A stretch of DNA of 21,826 nt, taken from the IMG/VR virus record IMGVR_UViG_3300047552_000539, positions 1 to 21,826 of that record; one strand, 5' to 3'. The translations under genes were made by a program, and so were the position numbers. The DNA comes from a virus. The notes beneath the pieces were generated by a model. The model searched no databases, was not told where the DNA came from, and worked only from the letters and a program-made list of their open reading frames with translations. This document shows, in pieces, positions 6,439-21,826 of this stretch (position 1 is the first letter of the stretch; every line of letters starts with the position of its first letter).

Positions 6439-6819
6439 GTGTCTCGCAAGCCAAACAGCAAGGCCCAGCAAGAGTTACGGGCGCAGGAGAAGCTGGCCCA
6501 GCGCCAACGCGACGACGACTTGCGCGCCATCATGGCTACTCAGCAGGGACGCCGATTCGTCATGGACATCATCGACCGTCGCTGCAACGCCCACGGAACC
6601 GGGCTGTCCTGGTCCGGCTCGGAGATGTACCACAACGCCGGACAGCGTTCCGTTGGCGTGGATCTCAGAACCGACTGCGAGCGCGTTGCGACTGAGCAAT
6701 ACGTTGAAATGCTGACCGAATTCTTTGAGGCCAGGAAGCGTCTCAAGGAGCTGCGAGACGCGGCTGGGCAGCGTGCGGCTAACGAGATGGACGAACAGGA
6801 GGACGACGATGGCCTGTAG
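6439..6819 (+). CDS. Bbp19-like phage protein, 126 aa
   Basis: Start GTG 6439 is set by AGGAGG just upstream. The first 30 residues are a charged helix (ELRAQEKLAQRQRDDDLRAI). The core LRAIMATQQGRRFVMDIIDR, then SGSEMYHNAGQRSVGVDL and a following helix, matches the layout of the Bbp19-type domain known from Bordetella phage BPP-1 and relatives: an invariant GRR near the start and a GxRSVGxxL segment later. The C-terminus is very acidic (NEMDEQEDDDGL). The role of the family is not established; its constant position between portal and scaffold suggests a virion or assembly function. It overlaps the next gene by 11 bases. Confidence 0.75.
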   Translation: MSRKPNSKAQQELRAQEKLAQRQRDDDLRAIMATQQGRRFVMDIIDRRCNAHGTGLSWSGSEMYHNAGQRSVGVDLRTDCERVATEQYVEMLTEFFEARKRLKELRDAAGQRAANEMDEQEDDDGL

Positions 6820-7021
6820 CGACGAGTGCGGATGCGAGCTGTCCAAGGCTGACCTGGAGCTTATCGAGAAGGCCGAGCGAGAGCGGCGCCGATACGAGAT
6901 TGCTCGGGACGTTCTGGCTTCGTGGCACACAGAGTGGAGCGGCAAGCCAACAGTTGAGTCCGCTTGCAATGTGGCCGTTAAATGGGCCGACGCCCTGTTG
7001 GATGCGCTGGAGTCCAAGTGA
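6809..7021 (+). CDS. Small hypothetical protein, 70 aa
   Basis: ATG 6809 has AGGAGG at 6797-6802, six bases upstream, and lies inside the acidic end of the previous gene. The N-terminus carries three cysteines (MACSDECGCELS), then a highly charged helix (LELIEKAERERRRYEIARDV) and a C-terminal helix SACNVAVKWADALLDALESK. The last segment resembles a recurrent ending of small phage proteins, in which a WAxxxADAL helix closes the protein. The function is unknown. Its stop overlaps the next start (GTGA). Confidence 0.72.
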   Translation: MACSDECGCELSKADLELIEKAERERRRYEIARDVLASWHTEWSGKPTVESACNVAVKWADALLDALESK

Positions 7022-7179
7022 CACGAGCCTACCTGGAAATCCGCGACAACCCTCCCTGGTTCGGCATCTGCTTCGAGGATGGTCTCAGCATGCGAGACCA
7101 GAGGCTGCTGCACCAGACGTGGGACCGTAGAGACATGATCGAGTGCGCCGAGTCTTTGCTGGCAGATAGGGGATGGTAA
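7018..7179 (+). CDS. Small hypothetical protein, 53 aa
   Basis: The GTG at 7018 overlaps the previous stop as GTGA and has GGAG at about 7009-7012, well spaced. The protein is a compact, mostly charged 53-residue chain (TRAYLEIRDNPPWFGICFED, then a helical MRDQRLLHQTWDRRDMIEC part). There is no signal peptide, membrane segment or known motif. An in-frame ATG at 6982 lies inside the previous gene and has no better ribosome-binding site. The downstream gene begins on its stop codon (TAATG). Confidence 0.62.
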   Translation: MTRAYLEIRDNPPWFGICFEDGLSMRDQRLLHQTWDRRDMIECAESLLADRGW

Positions 7180-7502
7180 TGAGCACGGTTAACGAGCGCC
7201 TGAAGGCCGAGAACCAGTTCTTGTATGCGCAGGTTGCGCAATACAGGGGAATCGTTGGGCTCCTGGTTGACCGGCTCGGCGGCGAGCAGTCTGTTGCTGA
7301 CGCCGACCTGAAGTCCATGGCCGACGATGGCGCGGTATTCACAATGGGAGTGAAGCCAGGCGAAGCCAAGGAAGACGGAACCAGGGGGCCCGACACGCTG
7401 ACGCTGCGCGTTCTCAAGGGCGAGGCTGCCAAAGCCGTCCAGACCGAGGCCCCTCGAATCGTTGCCCCACAGCAGTCTAGCCTGATTATCCCCGGACGGT
7501 AG
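7179..7502 (+). CDS. Small hypothetical protein with N-terminal coiled coil, 107 aa
   Basis: ATG 7179 overlaps the previous TAA and has AGGGG at 7168-7172, six bases upstream; the in-frame ATG at 7173 is too close to that site. Residues 1-35 (NERLKAENQFLYAQVAQYRG, then a short hydrophobic IVGLLVDRL) predict a coiled coil. The remainder is polar, rich in Gly, Lys and Glu, and ends SSLIIPGR. No family is recognised. It belongs to the run of small genes between portal and scaffold. Confidence 0.7.
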   Translation: MSTVNERLKAENQFLYAQVAQYRGIVGLLVDRLGGEQSVADADLKSMADDGAVFTMGVKPGEAKEDGTRGPDTLTLRVLKGEAAKAVQTEAPRIVAPQQSSLIIPGR

Positions 7503-7504
7503 AC

Positions 7505-7690
7505 ATGCCAAGGCGCACGGGCTGGGAATGCTACGACCATCTTGGGCTGTGCATGGACTCGGAGTCCTGGCGCGGTATCGAGTTTGACCTGGGGTATCCG
7601 GTCCCAAGGCGCCTCAGAAACCGCTTCCTGGCTACGGTAGTTCTCGACGAAACAATCATGCGCCGATACTGCGATGGACATGAAGCGTAG
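7505..7690 (+). CDS. Small hypothetical protein, 61 aa
   Basis: ATG 7505 follows the previous stop by two bases; the only upstream purine-rich element is GGACGG, a weak ribosome-binding site. The 61-residue product is soluble-looking with two basic patches (MPRRTGW and PVPRRLRNRF) and no known motif. The gene is supported by its tight spacing and codon pattern, but it is short and could be spurious. It is the last gene before the tRNA-like sequence. Confidence 0.55.
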   Translation: MPRRTGWECYDHLGLCMDSESWRGIEFDLGYPVPRRLRNRFLATVVLDETIMRRYCDGHEA

Positions 7691-7710
7691 AGCGAAGCTC
7701 GTTTAGTAGG

Positions 7711-7782
7711 ACCACTATCGTCTAAAGGGTAGGATCGCGTTATCGTAAGCGCGAGATGCGAGTTCGAACCTCGCTAGTGGCA
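7711..7782 (+). tRNA. tRNA-like gene, isotype unclear, abnormal anticodon loop
   Basis: The acceptor ACCACTA (7711-7717) pairs with TAGTGGC (7775-7781) over six pairs with an A-C mismatch at 1-72, and the discriminator is A7782. The D arm has GTCT and GGAT around an AAAGGGTA loop. The T arm is perfect: GCGAG, TTCGAAC, CTCGC. The anticodon stem closes as CGCGTT/AGCGCG with a six-base loop ATCGTA, or as a five-pair stem with an eight-base loop; no pairing gives seven. If T33 is the T of ATCGTA, the anticodon would read CGT (threonine), but this is uncertain. CCA is not encoded. Total length is 72 bases, one short of usual. It may be a degraded tRNA or a tRNA mimic. Confidence 0.7.
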
Positions 7783-7808
7783 GGCCCTGGCAATCGCCGG
7801 GGCCTTTT
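7783..7808 (+). terminator. Rho-independent terminator directly after the tRNA-like gene
   Basis: GGCCCTGGC (7783-7791) pairs with GCCGGGGCC (7796-7804) over nine pairs with one T-G wobble, a four-base AATC loop and TTTT. The stem begins at the base after the tRNA discriminator, and the next regulatory box begins one base after the T run, so it marks a clean boundary between transcription units. Confidence 0.88.
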
Positions 7809-7844
7809 GTATAGCTTGCGGCAGGTCGGGCCCATTCTTGGGCC
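7809..7844 (+). promoter_or_regulatory. Conserved 16-base box plus start-abutting hairpin upstream of scaffold
   Basis: GTATAGCTTGCGGCAG (7809-7824) matches the box at 1941-1956 at 15 of 16 bases. GGCCCA (7829-7834) pairs with TGGGCC (7839-7844) around TTCT, and the stem ends one base before ATG 7845. There is no Shine-Dalgarno sequence. It lies immediately after a terminator, exactly where a new promoter would be needed for the capsid genes. TATAGC could be a -10 element; no convincing -35 is seen. Confidence 0.6.
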
Positions 7845-8621
7845 ATGTCCGACACAGCCCAAACGACTCCCGAAGTATCCAGTGCTGCCGCTGCGGCTGT
7901 GACCGCTCCGGCCGCTGAACCTGTTGCCGCTGCCGCCTCAACCCCGGCCGCTGCGCCAGTCGCAACTCCAGCTCCAGCAGCCAGGCCCGCGACGGCGGAC
8001 AAGGCTCCAGAGCCGGCCAAGGATGCCGAGAAGCCCGCCGAGGTGGCGTCACTTCTCAAGGCTCCCGAGAAGTCCGACGCACAGAAGGGCGAAGCAGACA
8101 AAGCTGCCGAGGAGAAATCCGTTAAGGCGGATGTCGAGATCGCTATCCCCGAGGGGCTCAAGGTCAATGACGAAGTGCTGTCTGAGTTCAAGGCCATCGC
8201 CAAGGAGGCGGGTCTGGACTCCAAGAACGCTCAGAAGTTCTTTGACCTCGAGATGAAGGCTGCGCAGGCGCGCGAGGCCGAACAGGCCAGGGCGTTTTCG
8301 CAGTGGAAACAGGACAGCATTGCCAGCCTGAAGAAGGAGTGGGCCGGGGCGTTCGAGCAGAACGTTGCGCACGCGCAACGCGCTATCGACCGTTTCGCGC
8401 CTCCTGGTCTTCTTGAGGCTCTTGGTGGCCTTGAAAACCACCCGGCCGCGATGCAGTTCTTTGCCGCTATTGGCAAGGCGTTTGGCGAGGATTCTCTTGC
8501 TAGCGTCGCTAACGCCAAGAGCGCTCCGGCCGTTGACCATCAGCGAGGAATTACCGGCAACGCGCTTGTAGATAACCTGGCCGGCTCGCTGTACCCGTCC
8601 ATGAACAAGCAATCCGACTAA
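7845..8621 (+). CDS. Capsid scaffolding protein, 258 aa
   Basis: The gene lies immediately before the major capsid gene, the standard scaffold position. Residues 1-95 are an Ala/Pro/Val-rich, lysine- and glutamate-containing disordered tract. A folded segment follows: IPEGLKVNDEVLSEFKAIAK, the EAGLDSKNAQKFFDLEMKAA helix pair, a WKQDSIASLKKEWAG helix, and a conserved-looking FAPPGLLEALGGLENHPAAM region with a final Asp/Lys tail. This order (disordered front, EAGL helices, then a GL-xNHP segment near the end) is typical of scaffolds from podo- and siphoviruses. It would organise capsid subunits during procapsid assembly and then leave. The ATG lacks a Shine-Dalgarno sequence and abuts a hairpin. 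Confidence 0.85.
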   Translation: MSDTAQTTPEVSSAAAAAVTAPAAEPVAAAASTPAAAPVATPAPAARPATADKAPEPAKDAEKPAEVASLLKAPEKSDAQKGEADKAAEEKSVKADVEIAIPEGLKVNDEVLSEFKAIAKEAGLDSKNAQKFFDLEMKAAQAREAEQARAFSQWKQDSIASLKKEWAGAFEQNVAHAQRAIDRFAPPGLLEALGGLENHPAAMQFFAAIGKAFGEDSLASVANAKSAPAVDHQRGITGNALVDNLAGSLYPSMNKQSD

Positions 8622-10860: not shown

Positions 10861-11418
10861 ATGGCGAATCTACCTAGCCCGGCTGGAACTCAAAAGAAGA
10901 CCGGATACGTTAACGCCGACTTCCACGCCAGCGCCTCGATTGCTACGTCTAAGCTGGCGACTGGCGCTCTTCCGTCTGCAATTACGCTTGCGGAAGCCAA
11001 CCTGTCTTCCGAACTGTACGGCAACTATGCAGACGTATCGCTTACTGCTGCCCAGGTAAAGGCTCTTCACACGACCCCGTACACGCTGGTTGCAGCTCCC
11101 GCAGCCGGCTATGCCAACGTGTTTGACGGCGCGCTGCTGTTCCTGGACTACAGCGGCGGCGCCTTCACGTCTGGAAATGCGCTCGTCAAGTATACAAACG
11201 AGGCCGGGCAGTTGGTTGCTACGGTGGCGTCCAGCGGCTTCCTGACTGCCACGTCTGACCAGCTTCGGTATGTGTACCCGGCCAGCACGGCTGCGATTGT
11301 TCCTGTTTCCGCTGCGGCGCTTGTGCTGAACGTCGCCTCAACGGATCCGTCTGGCGCAGCTGCAACAAGCGTGCTGTATGTCCGAACGTTCTTCCACGTT
11401 ATCCCGATGACGTATTAG
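10861..11418 (+). CDS. Virion-associated beta-rich protein, second of a tandem paralogous pair, 185 aa
   Basis: The gene follows its paralog by nine bases, with only a weak GGGG upstream of ATG 10861. Shared blocks include ASIATSKLATGALPSAITLA, EANL, GNYADVSL, LVAAPAAGYANVFDGALLFL and VRTFFHVIPMTY. The middle third has diverged most. A tandem duplication followed by divergence explains the pair, which could provide two versions of one capsid-surface or appendage protein. A 22-base hairpin follows the gene but lacks a T run. No enzyme motif is present. Confidence 0.75.
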   Translation: MANLPSPAGTQKKTGYVNADFHASASIATSKLATGALPSAITLAEANLSSELYGNYADVSLTAAQVKALHTTPYTLVAAPAAGYANVFDGALLFLDYSGGAFTSGNALVKYTNEAGQLVATVASSGFLTATSDQLRYVYPASTAAIVPVSAAALVLNVASTDPSGAAATSVLYVRTFFHVIPMTY

Positions 11419-11435
11419 CAGCAGTGCAGTTAACC

Positions 11436-11457
11436 GGCCCCCGTTAACGCGGGGGCC
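11436..11457 (+). other. Strong hairpin without T run
   Basis: GGCCCCCG (11436-11443) pairs perfectly with CGGGGGCC (11450-11457) around a TTAACG loop. The bases that follow (ATATCCG) are not a T run, so it is more likely an attenuator, RNA-processing or mRNA-protecting hairpin than a full intrinsic terminator. Confidence 0.7.
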
Positions 11458-17028: not shown

Positions 17029-18987
17029 ATGCCTAGGATTCCGGTTCCCGAGGCCCCACAGCAGGTTTCAGAGGGGCCGCGCATGGCCGGCGCGGCTGAC
17101 GCCCCTGCCGGAGCGTTCGGGGAGGCTGCCGCCAAAGGCCTCATGAACGCCGGCGCTGGCCTCAGCAACCTGAGCCACGGCCTCCAGCAGTACCAGGCCC
17201 ACCAGGACCGGGCCGACAACTCGGCCGTAGAGGGAGCCCTTGCCGAGTACGGAAACGGTCTCAACCAGGCCCTCGCGTCGTATAAGAGCCTGCAGGGCGA
17301 GAACGCTCTCAAGCACTATGACGACACGCTGACGGCGATGGAGAGCCACAAGCAGGCCATCTCCCAGCGCCTTGGCAACGATAGGCAGCGTGCTCTGTTC
17401 AACCGAAGGGCTGGCCTCGAGGCCAACCGCGTTGACCGCTCCATGGTTCTACACCAGTCCGAGCAGATTGGTGCGCTTGAAGATCAGAAGTTCAAGGCGC
17501 GCGAGGCATCCGTTCTGGATTCGATTAGGCTCAGTGCGAACGATGATATCTCGGCCGTCCAGGACGCTATTGGAGAGTTTGCTCAGAACGAGCTTGGAGC
17601 GTCTCACGAGAGGCGTGGACTGTCCTATGAGGCCAGGCCGTTGGTCGAGGCCGAGTGGAAGGCCAAGGCATACGGAGAGGCCCTCCGGGCCATGATTCGT
17701 CCCCCCGACGGGAAGGAGCCCAGGCCAGACCGCGTGCAGGCGTTCTTTGAGGCCCACAAGAAGGACCTGGATCCCAAGGATGCCGAGCAGCTTGGCGAGG
17801 TCGTTCGCGAGATCGGATTCCGCCAGCGCGTTGAGGAGCACGTCTCCGGGCTTCTCGGAAAGCACTCCGAAGGCGTTCGGCTACCAAATGGGAATCTGAT
17901 TGCCAAGGTTGACGGTCCTGCAATCGTTGATGCCGCCGAGCAGCTGAAGTTGCCAGAGAAGGAGAAGGAGCGCCTTAGAACCCTGGCTCGTAGCATTGCC
18001 ACGGCAACCGAGGGTCAGTGGTCGAAGCAGCAGCAGGCCGTTTATGAGTCTGCCATGACGGACTACCTTAGAAGCCCTACCAGGGGCGCGGCCGGGCTTC
18101 GTGCGATTCCTCCCGAGACCAGAACGTGGCTCGTCGAGCATGCCCCCGACAGGTGGGAGGCAATCGAGCGCAAGGCGCAGGCTGCAGACGAGCGCGCCAA
18201 CAGGCGAATTCGCGGCTCGGCAGAGGATAGGCGCTGGCAGGAGGAGCAGGACCAGGAGGCCTGGTATCGCTATCAGGAGATGTCTTCAAAAAACGAGGCC
18301 GAGGCTTCCGAGGCCAACGTTGAAGAGGAGTTCCCGTCTGCATCTCCGAAGATGGCCCAGCGCATCAGGGCCGCACAGCAGAAGGACAAGAACAACGTTA
18401 GCGGCGGCGGCCGGGTTGGCTACTCGGATACGAAGTCAATCGCCGAAGAAGAGGCCGGCAGACTCGGATTTACCGTCAAGGGGTCTGCCAACAAGAAGCG
18501 TCTTGAGTCCTTCCAGGGATGGGTACGCGACTATTACGACTCGTTCAGGACAAAGAACAAGCGCAATCCTACGCGCGACGAGGTTCGAGAAGCTGTTGCG
18601 TCAGGCCTTGTCCTTGGTGACGAAAACGGAGACGAGTGGTTTGGCGGGTCTGCTAAGTACAAGTTTGAGACCAAGCCGGGCGACAAGTTCGTTCCGTATG
18701 CGAAGGAAAAGCAGAAGAGCAGGCTTTCGAATGAGGACAGGCCTTCCGCCGAGCCAATGCCTCGGGACATGAAGCTTGGAGACGAACCGGCGCCGAGCAA
18801 GGAAGACTCAGCCAAGGCGCTTAATAGCCTGCGCAAGAAGGTGTCTTCCGGGGCCAAGAATAATGCGCGCAAGGCCGAGAAAGAGGCGGCAGTAAATGCT
18901 ATTCTAGACGAGCATCCAGAGTATAAGGATAAAGACGGAAAGCTGTCTAAAGAGTTCTTCGTTGAAATGAAACGCAGGGGCTTCTAA
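17029..18987 (+). CDS. Internal virion / ejection protein (gp15 position), 652 aa
   Basis: ATG 17029 lies two bases after the gp14-like gene with AGGAG just upstream. The first 60 residues are Pro/Ala/Gly-rich (RIPVPEAPQQVSEGP), followed by a mostly helical, highly charged body. Near residues 487-520 a conserved-looking segment (ESFQGWVRDYYDSFRTKNKR, then NPTRDEVREAV) matches a C-terminal pattern seen in other phage ejection proteins. The last 60 residues are Lys/Glu-rich. No peptidoglycan hydrolase motif is visible in it. Gene order and composition place it as the gp15-type internal core protein; sequence similarity to T7 gp15 itself is not evident. The stop overlaps the next start (TAATG). 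Confidence 0.78.
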   Translation: MPRIPVPEAPQQVSEGPRMAGAADAPAGAFGEAAAKGLMNAGAGLSNLSHGLQQYQAHQDRADNSAVEGALAEYGNGLNQALASYKSLQGENALKHYDDTLTAMESHKQAISQRLGNDRQRALFNRRAGLEANRVDRSMVLHQSEQIGALEDQKFKAREASVLDSIRLSANDDISAVQDAIGEFAQNELGASHERRGLSYEARPLVEAEWKAKAYGEALRAMIRPPDGKEPRPDRVQAFFEAHKKDLDPKDAEQLGEVVREIGFRQRVEEHVSGLLGKHSEGVRLPNGNLIAKVDGPAIVDAAEQLKLPEKEKERLRTLARSIATATEGQWSKQQQAVYESAMTDYLRSPTRGAAGLRAIPPETRTWLVEHAPDRWEAIERKAQAADERANRRIRGSAEDRRWQEEQDQEAWYRYQEMSSKNEAEASEANVEEEFPSASPKMAQRIRAAQQKDKNNVSGGGRVGYSDTKSIAEEEAGRLGFTVKGSANKKRLESFQGWVRDYYDSFRTKNKRNPTRDEVREAVASGLVLGDENGDEWFGGSAKYKFETKPGDKFVPYAKEKQKSRLSNEDRPSAEPMPRDMKLGDEPAPSKEDSAKALNSLRKKVSSGAKNNARKAEKEAAVNAILDEHPEYKDKDGKLSKEFFVEMKRRGF

Positions 18988-21826
18988 TGGCACAGGAAAA
19001 CGACCTCGCTGGCGCCGATAACAACCAGGAATCGGCGCAAGACACCTCTGCGCTTGAGAACGATCCGGATATTCTTGAGGCAGTAGCAAGGCGAAGCTCC
19101 GGGCAGACAGAGCCGCAGGACGCCGTTGATCCGGACATTGCTGATGCGCTGCAACGCCGGGAGCAGAAGTCCATTAGGAGCAATCGCATCAAGGCCCTGT
19201 ACGAAGCCGACCGATTCGGAATCGGAGAGCGTGGACAGCGCGTCATCAGAATGGCCGAGAAGACCGGCCTACATCCGGACGTCATCGACGCAAACCTGGA
19301 CAAGTTCAGCAAGGCCGCCGAGGTCTCCGAGTACGACACGGACAGGCTTGAGCGTGACTATCCAGACCTGGTCGAGACGCTACTTGAGCATCAGCACCTG
19401 GCCGGGCCGATTCTGAAGGATCCGGCGCTTAGGGATATTTCCGAAGAACTGCGAACTGGCGAAGTTGCGTCTCGGGTTGAGCCTGGTAGCTTCGTCAAGC
19501 GGGGGCTCACTTTCGCGGCTGACGCAGTCGGAAAGCTCGGATCCGCCATGGAGTCTGGCTTTGCCGCGTCGTCTCAGGCCGAGGTTGGCCGAAAGATGGC
19601 TGGCTCTGCCGCCCTGTTCGGCGACGAGAAGTTGGCCGGCGAAGCCAAGAAGATGCAGGCCGCTTCCGAAGAGAGCGCCAATAAGGCCATCTCTACCCTT
19701 GAGTCTGTTCCCGAGGCTAGGAAGCCAAACATCATCCAGACTGTTACGGCTCCCGAGGCGAAGCTTGAGGGCGTCGAGCGCCTGAAGATTCTGCCTGCTG
19801 CATACAAGTATTATCGCAGGGACCACGATGCAAGCGTTACGGCTTTCAAGGTAATGATTGGCAAGATCCGTGGACAGGATGTTTTCGAGAACGAAAAGAA
19901 GCTCGTCGCTATGGAGCAAGAGCTTGGCGACGTTCCGTGGTACGGCCAGGGTCCGGCCATGCAGCTTGGGCTTGATGCGGTTCAGGCGTTCGCCTCTAAC
20001 CCGGAAAGCCTTGGAGCGCAGGCCCTTGGCGCTGCCGCAGGACTTGGCGTTGGTAGGATGTTCGGGCCCATGGCTGGCAGAAAGGCTGCCAAGGTTGTAG
20101 GCAGGGCTCTTGGATACACGGCTTCTTTCGTTGCGGAGGGCGGAAGCGCCTATCGACAGTTCAAGAAGGTCAAGGGGCCAGACGGAGAACTCGACGAGCC
20201 TACGCTGATTGGCGCGACCATCTTCTATGCGGCAATCGCCTCCGCCATCGAGGTTGGCGGCAACGAGGCGGAACTCAGGATGCTGGGGCCAATCGGCGAC
20301 AAGCTGGTTGGGCTTGAGAAAAAGGAGGTTGCGCGCTGGCTGGCCTCAGATGGCAAGTTCAGGACGCTGCTCAAGGAGGCTGGCAAGCGTTGGAGTTCCA
20401 GACTTGTGGCTGGCATGTATGCGGAGGGCAAGGAGGAGGCCCAGCAGCAGACGCTGCAGAACGTTATTGATTACGCTCTAAAGCTCAAGATGGGCGAGAC
20501 GTCCGGCCCTGACGTTGCAGCCATGCTTGGTGACGCGGGCGGAGCCTTTGTCGCTGGCGGGATTGGCGCCGCAGGCCTTGGGCCAATCGGATATGGCAGC
20601 CATGTTGTCGGTATGTCCATCGAGCGCGCCCAGCAGTCCAGCTCCGCGCAGCAAGTCTCCGCAGTCCACAAGGGCACGCAAACGCAGCTCGCGAAGGCCA
20701 GCCCGGCTGGCTATGCCAAGGTAGTCGAGAAGGCCACCGGCGAGTCTGGCGCCCCAGTAACGCATATGTACGCCGACGCCGAGCAGTTGCTGACGCTGTT
20801 CCAAGAGGCCGGCCAGCCGCTCGAGCAGGCCGCCACCGATCTGCTCGGGCCGGACGGATACAAGAGAATCAACGCCGCCATCGTTACCGGGTCGAAGCTC
20901 GAGATCCCTGTTGGCGAGTGGGCCGCGAAGATTGCCACGAAGCCGCTTGGCGACGCTCTGGTTAACGGCGGGCACGTCATCGGCCATGCATTCATGGACA
21001 CTCCGGCCCAGGCCGCGCAGAAGCAGGCCTCGATTCAGACCGAGGCAAAGGCGTTGGTCGAGCGCGCCAAGTCTGAGCAGGCTACCGACGCAGAGCGCGA
21101 GTTCATGCAGGTAGTCCAGTCGCAGCTGCTAAAGTCCTACGAGCGAGAGCAGACCGGCAAGGACGGCAAGACTCGCAAGCAGCACATGAAGGTCGAGGAC
21201 AGCGCTGCCAGCGTTGAGCAGCTGGCTTCGGTAGTCGTCACGATGGCGAAGCGTAGCGGCGTGCCAGTAGAAGACATGATGCGTCAGTACGTCGTCACGG
21301 TCCAGCGGCACCAGGACGGCGCCCAGCAGGCCGAGGCGGCCCAGCAGCAGCCTCCAGTTAATCGCACCGAGGCGTCCGGCATTCTGGAGCGGGCCTATCG
21401 CGAGATGGACGACGAGGGAAAGCGAAACCTGTATTACCGGGACGCCACAACAGACCTACTGCACGAGCGCGGAATCAGGGACATGCCCGCCGACGAGGCG
21501 CGGCCGAACTACGGCGTTCTTAGCTTCGGATACAAAAAGGATCTGAACGACGTTAAGGGAAAGGGGCACGACTTCGCAGACGACGTCTTCAGGGACATCG
21601 CCAAGGCGCTGCACGAGATTGATCCGAACGCCGGAAAGGTCGGAGGGGACTTGTGGCTTCCTGCCTTCGGTGACCAGGCCGAGATGGATGCGCTCATTGA
21701 GCAACTCCGCTCCAAGCTGCCCGAGGGCCTCAAGGACATTCCGCTCGTCGGCACGGTCATGGAGCGCAAGGCGGGCGAGGACTGGACCGCAACCAAGCAC
21801 CGTGGCGGCGACACGTTGTCTGCCCA
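18987..21826 (+). CDS. Giant ejection protein with GGDEF-like domain, truncated by window end (946+ aa)
   Basis: The frame opens at ATG 18987 overlapping the previous stop and stays open to the last base. Residues 1-140 are acidic and helical, including a DALQRREQKSIRSNRIKALY stretch. Three Gly/Ala-rich hydrophobic segments follow at about 335-375, 403-430 and 510-545 (GAQALGAAAGLGVGRMFGPM, TLIGATIFYAAIASAIEVGG, AFVAGGIGAAGLGPIGYGSH). A segment KLEIPVGEWAAKIATKPLGD (about 633-652) resembles one found in large ejection proteins of other podoviruses. Residues about 840-910 form a degenerate GGDEF-like domain (KKDLNDVKG, then KVGGDLW at 884-890). It occupies the gp16 position and is probably injected into the host. 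The rest of the gene lies outside the window. Confidence 0.85.
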   Translation, partial: MAQENDLAGADNNQESAQDTSALENDPDILEAVARRSSGQTEPQDAVDPDIADALQRREQKSIRSNRIKALYEADRFGIGERGQRVIRMAEKTGLHPDVIDANLDKFSKAAEVSEYDTDRLERDYPDLVETLLEHQHLAGPILKDPALRDISEELRTGEVASRVEPGSFVKRGLTFAADAVGKLGSAMESGFAASSQAEVGRKMAGSAALFGDEKLAGEAKKMQAASEESANKAISTLESVPEARKPNIIQTVTAPEAKLEGVERLKILPAAYKYYRRDHDASVTAFKVMIGKIRGQDVFENEKKLVAMEQELGDVPWYGQGPAMQLGLDAVQAFASNPESLGAQALGAAAGLGVGRMFGPMAGRKAAKVVGRALGYTASFVAEGGSAYRQFKKVKGPDGELDEPTLIGATIFYAAIASAIEVGGNEAELRMLGPIGDKLVGLEKKEVARWLASDGKFRTLLKEAGKRWSSRLVAGMYAEGKEEAQQQTLQNVIDYALKLKMGETSGPDVAAMLGDAGGAFVAGGIGAAGLGPIGYGSHVVGMSIERAQQSSSAQQVSAVHKGTQTQLAKASPAGYAKVVEKATGESGAPVTHMYADAEQLLTLFQEAGQPLEQAATDLLGPDGYKRINAAIVTGSKLEIPVGEWAAKIATKPLGDALVNGGHVIGHAFMDTPAQAAQKQASIQTEAKALVERAKSEQATDAEREFMQVVQSQLLKSYEREQTGKDGKTRKQHMKVEDSAASVEQLASVVVTMAKRSGVPVEDMMRQYVVTVQRHQDGAQQAEAAQQQPPVNRTEASGILERAYREMDDEGKRNLYYRDATTDLLHERGIRDMPADEARPNYGVLSFGYKKDLNDVKGKGHDFADDVFRDIAKALHEIDPNAGKVGGDLWLPAFGDQAEMDALIEQLRSKLPEGLKDIPLVGTVMERKAGEDWTATKHRGGDTLSA

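Follow-up and report, generated by a model that had tools for sequence, protein, structure and literature searches.

A 14-base box stands at the late operon starts of a temperate phage, and we estimate at about 0.6 the probability that it is the recognition element of an activator-dependent phage late promoter, in which the box replaces the −35 element and the messages of the terminase small subunit gene (terS) and the scaffold gene would be leaderless. The window analysed here is a stretch of 21,826 nucleotides (IMG/VR record IMGVR_UViG_3300047552_000539, positions 1 to 21,826), and coordinates refer to its plus strand unless another record is named. A longer IMG/VR record of the same phage, G001, has 56,126 bp and is 99.96% identical to the window. 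It describes a temperate phage, with a serine integrase, an HTH repressor, exonuclease/RecT and a DnaB helicase, and its structural cluster is that of a BPP-1/epsilon15-type podovirus. According to the model, a phage-made DNA-binding activator would bind the box, which covers the −35 region, and would recruit the host's RNA polymerase holoenzyme to a weak −10 hexamer 10 bases past the box. Transcripts from copy 1 (terS) and copy 2 (the scaffold-capsid operon) would start no more than 1-2 bases from the A of the ATG, so that both mRNAs would be leaderless and a Shine-Dalgarno sequence (SD) would be unnecessary. Copy 3, which lies before the first gene past the giant ejection-protein gene, would give a normal leader carrying TAAGGAGG.

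Copy 2 of the box (GTATAGCTTGCGGC) occupies 7809-7822, and copy 1 (GTATATCTTGCGGC) occupies 1941-1954; when read over 1941-1956, copy 1 is GTATATCTTGCGGCAG. In both cases 36 bases separate the box start from an ATG, which is that of terS (1977-2384; PHROG 51, E 1.5e-24) at 1977 and that of the scaffold/protease gene (7845-8621; PHROG 458, E 1.4e-27) at 7845. Judged from the window alone the pair was unconvincing, as a 13-base version with at most three mismatches gave nine matches against 4.7 expected. The longer record resolved the matter: copy 3, at 44328 of the G001 reverse complement, is again exactly GTATAGCTTGCGGC. The repeat described in a first-pass annotation of this DNA is therefore real, with copy 1 confirmed and a third copy added. 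The general form of the box is GTATAKCTTGCGGC, found three times in G001; the next best match anywhere in that genome has three mismatches, and no other intergenic sequence is present three times. All three copies fall in intergenic DNA, which makes up 6% of the genome, and each shares its strand with the coding sequence that follows, which is terS for copy 1, the scaffold and capsid genes for copy 2, and the first gene past the giant ejection-protein gene for copy 3.

We find it hardly credible that the box is a chance repeat without function. Shuffling of intergenic DNA does yield a 14-mer triple of equal quality in 6 of 1000 runs, a figure that rests on three copies, a small sample, and that leaves position and orientation out of the count. 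Against chance stand the shared strand, the use of the same three places in relatives, the equal spacing to the ATG and the distribution of SD sequences. All three distances from box to ATG (36, 36 and 51) are divisible by three, and at copies 1 and 3 the box is in frame with the stop codon before it; read-through is unlikely, since copies 2 and 3 contain in-frame stops.

The first-pass annotation had seen no convincing −35 hexamer near copy 2, and our searches agree: TTGACA with at most one mismatch is absent from the 90 bases upstream of every copy, and no sigma-70-type match occurs in this stretch before ATG 7845. A sigma-54 −24/−12 pattern was also considered and was rejected by eye, with no GG at the right distance. 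Downstream of the box, an offset of 10 nt past the 14-mer is the only one at which all three copies show NANNNT, namely CATGCT (copy 1, 1965-1970), CATTCT (copy 2, 7833-7838) and GAGCCT (copy 3), with A, C and T invariant among them. Shuffling gives a shared NANNNT at this offset a probability of 0.00035 (0.035% of runs). As proposed −10 elements these hexamers are weak, the first T of TANNNT being missing, and they lie 6, 6 and 21 nt from the ATG in copies 1, 2 and 3. Counted in this way, copy 2 is proposed to occupy −36 to −23, in place of a −35 element. An SD is found only at copy 3, in its long leader with TAAGGAGG, and copies 1 and 2 have none. Among the genes of G001, 55 of 64 have an SD match of at least 4; the scaffold gene has no match of at least 3, and terS has just TAA. 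We propose that ATG 7845 is a leaderless start.

A different placement of the promoter would make the box itself a −10 element with its discriminator (TAKCTT-GCGGC), so that transcription would begin near 7823 and a 22-nt leader would fold as a hairpin against the AUG. TAKCTT does fit TANNNT, and the T run that ends at 7808 resembles the arrangement in the metagenomic relatives L008 and L009, where a terminator before MCP is followed by TANNNT-GC and the probable start site coincides with a conserved ACCAAGG. We nevertheless regard this placement as unlikely, because it accounts neither for the identical 36-nt distances at copies 1 and 2 nor for their lack of an SD, it would put the conservation of CT and A in the downstream hexamer down to chance, and the parallel with Rauchvirus-like phages, described below, points to the −35 position.

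Directly before the scaffold gene lies an inverted repeat, GGCCCA-TTCT-TGGGCC (7829-7844), in which GGCCCA at 7829-7834 pairs with TGGGCC at 7839-7844; it overlaps the proposed −10 hexamer and touches ATG 7845. The repeat had been noticed on first reading and is real, though moderately unusual: at least five perfect pairs abutting a start are found at 2-4% of positions as background, and two of the three box genes show them. Folding of the leader, which had been suggested as a check, gives a weak fold, with an RNA fold z of −2.0 for this repeat and further values of −0.8 to −1.3. At the equivalent sites, relatives lack a conserved hairpin. If the first transcribed base is the A of the ATG or a neighbour of it, the 5′ arm of the repeat is untranscribed, and for this reason the repeat is probably not an RNA leader hairpin. 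A translational role has been considered as well, in which the hairpin would bring a distant SD (AGG, 7823-7825) beside the AUG. The hairpin does abut the AUG, and there is a precedent in the split ribosome binding sites of T4 genes 25 and 38, where a hairpin lies directly before the AUG (PMC3014915). The T4 arrangement fails at copy 1, whose hairpin is not preceded by an SD, and the weak folds and their lack of conservation in relatives likewise make such a role very unlikely indeed.

Upstream, copy 2 is preceded without a gap by an intrinsic terminator (7783-7808; −20.6 kcal/mol, z −4.1), which has a 9-bp stem, an AATC loop and TTTT. The stem and loop, GGCCCTGGC-AATC-GCCGGGGCC, span 7783-7804 and the T run spans 7805-7808; a recheck of the coordinates agreed with the earlier placement of the end of the T run at 7808 and the start of the box at 7809. 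This is the strongest terminator-like site in the scanned 20 kb, where such sites number 12 against 15.2 by chance, so that their total is not above chance. The terminator lies directly 3′ of a tRNA-like gene (7711-7782; ARAGORN tRNA-???, Rfam RF00005, 35.5 bits) with an abnormal anticodon arm: its anticodon loop is not 7 nt long, ARAGORN assigns it a two-letter anticodon, and it has no encoded CCA. The gene may be degenerate, or it may be an unusual decoder. Small genes and this tRNA fill 6813-7782, between a Bbp19-like gene and the scaffold gene, and the relatives examined mostly have no such block. Because the terminator closes the inserted, tRNA-containing block, capsid transcription would depend on the box. 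The impression of a late-gene promoter that lacks a −35 element, gained at first from copy 2, fits the genome-wide set of three boxes.

Rauchvirus-like phages (BPP-1, the Caulobacter phages Jess A, SR18 and BL94, Limnohabitans phage DC33 and others) carry a box of their own in the corresponding places, with the core GGTRCCCGTA located 17 nt upstream of TANNNT. The three-copy repeat of Jess A, GGTGCGCATGATY, is found before terS, before 049c and before the gene past the giant gene, and its copy before 049c lies just after a terminator, at the start of the capsid cluster. Taken together, the boxes of Jess A and SR18 precede terS, 049c/050c and the gene past the giant gene. In BPP-1, GGGTGCCCGTGCC occurs in four exact copies, DC33 has three copies of GGTACCCGTATCC, and the Caulobacter-phage version, which BL94 also carries, is GGTGCGCATGAT. 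At ten sites from Jess A, BPP-1 and DC33, TANNNT stands 14 nt past the 13-mer in six and TA does so in eight; every other offset has at most one TANNNT, and none of 5000 shuffles reached this result. The offset rule also holds in zth2-2, MW202640 and MW202722, which are genomes outside the discovery set.

We then have the same architecture from IMG/VR, which was scanned with the pattern GGTACCCGTA-N(13-21)-TANNNT-N(5-7)-ATG and gave at least 120 stretches. Among the matches listed, 93 of 133 (49 of 80 unique sequences) have a spacer of 17, and 6 is the commonest discriminator length. The ATG opens an ORF of 80 aa or more in 34 of the 49 unique sequences with spacer 17 versus 2 of the 31 with other spacers, again among the matches listed. 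A spacer of 17 and a discriminator of 6 imply that the core ends where a −35 hexamer would end and that the A of the ATG lies near +1. The copies before terS and the head genes of the relatives are 38-42 nt from the ATG, which itself comes 5-9 nt after the −10, and no obvious SD accompanies them. A uniform 60 nt separates box and ATG in copies after the giant gene, most of which have AGGAG or a similar SD; in a few other copies the distance is 54-57 nt.

Like the window phage, BPP-1, Jess A, SR18, BL94, DC33 and zth2-2 repeat a box at the late operon starts of their late regions. The likeness extends to a fixed distance to the −10, a proposed one in the window phage, to an ATG about 6 nt past the −10 in the terS and head copies, and to a longer leader before the gene past the giant protein; the window phage has the same ATG and SD layout (6, 6 and 21 nt, with an SD only at copy 3). 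We infer that its box works in the same way, with the start site, leaderless messages and activator that this entails. The differences count against the late-promoter model. In place of GGTRCCCGTA (GGTGCGCATGAT in the Caulobacter phages) the window phage has GTATAKCTTGCGGC, and its −10 is weak, with NANNNT at the shared offset 10 after the 14-mer and the first T missing, and lies 3 nt nearer to the box than in the Rauchvirus-like phages. It also has no detectable homologue of the small HTH gene that these phages carry before terS, and has two Cys/His ORFs there instead. More tentatively, and at somewhat less than even odds, temperate podoviruses of the BPP-1 kind may in general use late promoters in which a lineage-specific box stands for the −35 and the mRNAs of the packaging genes and the capsid cluster are leaderless, with the window phage as a new branch that uses a box and an activator of its own, the latter possibly a zinc-finger protein.

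What reads the box had been left between a phage-encoded polymerase or sigma factor and an activator-dependent promoter. The box / 17-nt spacer / −10 / ATG architecture resolved in the relatives favours the activator, and the other two options found no support. Models of sigma-70 region 2 and region 4 matched nothing in the 56 kb of G001, a possibly incomplete record, and were positive in the control genomes; the sigma-like gene that the first-pass annotation had suggested looking for was therefore not found by these models. A search with PF00940 for a single-subunit RNA polymerase gave no match in G001, nor in the controls. Nearly every G001 protein of more than 300 aa is otherwise assigned, the main exception being a 409-aa gene after copy 3. 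The missing −35 and the conserved, contiguous motif would suit a phage polymerase or sigma factor, but the negative sigma searches, the assignment of the large proteins and the TANNNT that relatives conserve at −10, which points to the host holoenzyme, make this very unlikely.

A candidate for the activator in Rauchvirus-like phages is a small HTH protein encoded directly before terS, gp003c in SR18, with relatives in 13 phage records; all of the records examined carry the box. The window phage has no detectable homologue of this gene. A small Cys/His, zinc-finger-like ORF (1444-1716) takes the position of the HTH candidate, and a second, similar ORF (1701-1934) lies directly upstream of box copy 1; they were picked out by Cys/His pattern and, for the first, position, and neither has a family match. 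As homologues of the Rauchvirus HTH protein they were rejected by hhalign. Since the Cys/His ORFs stand in for the HTH gene without homology to it, we offer the activator of the window phage as a proposal only.

The box could also be an operator, at which a phage repressor would silence late promoters in lysogens. Epsilon15, a related podovirus, has regulatory sites in the three positions where the window boxes stand; its record lists them as repressor sites ahead of terS, gp3 and gp20, and their sequence is ATTACC-N5-GGTAAT; the window phage is temperate as well, with its serine integrase and HTH repressor. The epsilon15 operators are palindromic, however, and the window box is not, no copy of it lies near the repressor gene, and the repeat on the flanks of that gene is another one. 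An operator role is distinctly unlikely on these grounds.

The proposed activator-dependent promoter resembles two known systems in function, and the evidence places it in neither. In T4 middle promoters the MotA box replaces the −35 while the host −10 is kept, with AsiA and sigma appropriation (PMC7403470). The window model is similar in that an activator box would replace the −35, a position deduced from the −10 offset, but the window boxes stand at late operon starts and have an unrelated sequence, and no MotA or AsiA was recognised among PHROG scans of G001, which covered the small ORFs in part. In P2, several late operons share the small zinc-finger activator Ogr/Delta (PMC3931495), and, as proposed here, each late operon has its own activator-dependent promoter. 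The P2 site (TGT-N12-ACA) and the Ogr cysteine pattern (CX2CX22CX4C) both fail to fit the window phage: upstream of the promoters TGT-N12-ACA has a single match, at copy 3, and none at copies 1 and 2, and the Ogr pattern is absent.

The exact box is confined to one phage, so that it offers no phylogenetic test of its own. Among the matches listed in IMG/VR scans, no other genome has the window box as a late-promoter element. In the same scope, the exact 14-mer occurs in IMG/VR at about chance level, with the phage itself as the sole informative contig, and a composite pattern of the window promoter returned, besides the phage, one unrelated and repeatedly sampled sequence before a 34-aa ORF. 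The metagenomic relatives L003-L047 have no window box and mostly no gap before the scaffold gene; those with about 50% identical terL have a scaffold gene without a preceding gap. Two short contigs were the only further relatives in the genome collection. A de novo repeat search in the Xanthomonas phages CP2 and Olaya was set aside, as chance repeats were too many for interpretation. Separately, in L008 and L009 (records G010 and G009) we observed a repeated ACCAAGG, mostly after TANNNT-GC, past terL and before MCP (after a terminator), and in G010 this repeat also precedes the gene past the giant gene.

In the literature searched, whose coverage is incomplete, we found no paper on late promoters of BPP-1-type temperate phages. 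For the switching-on of late genes in such phages a concrete box / 17-nt spacer / −10 / ATG rule is now offered. Together with a candidate HTH activator encoded beside terS and predicted leaderless mRNAs of the packaging genes and the capsid cluster, it is directly testable, for example in the Caulobacter phages. Start sites would be corrected too: in BPP-1 (L175 26255-26318) the annotated start of terS (bbp26), 26318, lies upstream of the box, which predicts an ATG at 26255.

Three further features of the phage were observed. The giant ejection-type protein (window 18987-21824; 3256 aa in G001) contains a ddrB-like ParB domain at 1818-1950. On the reverse complement of G001, GGACAAGCCGG[GC]T is found at 7343 and 7790, on both sides of the HTH repressor gene, and these sites are operator candidates. 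Two near-identical stretches of about 29 bases lie inside the replication initiation gene, at 11331-11439 of the same strand.
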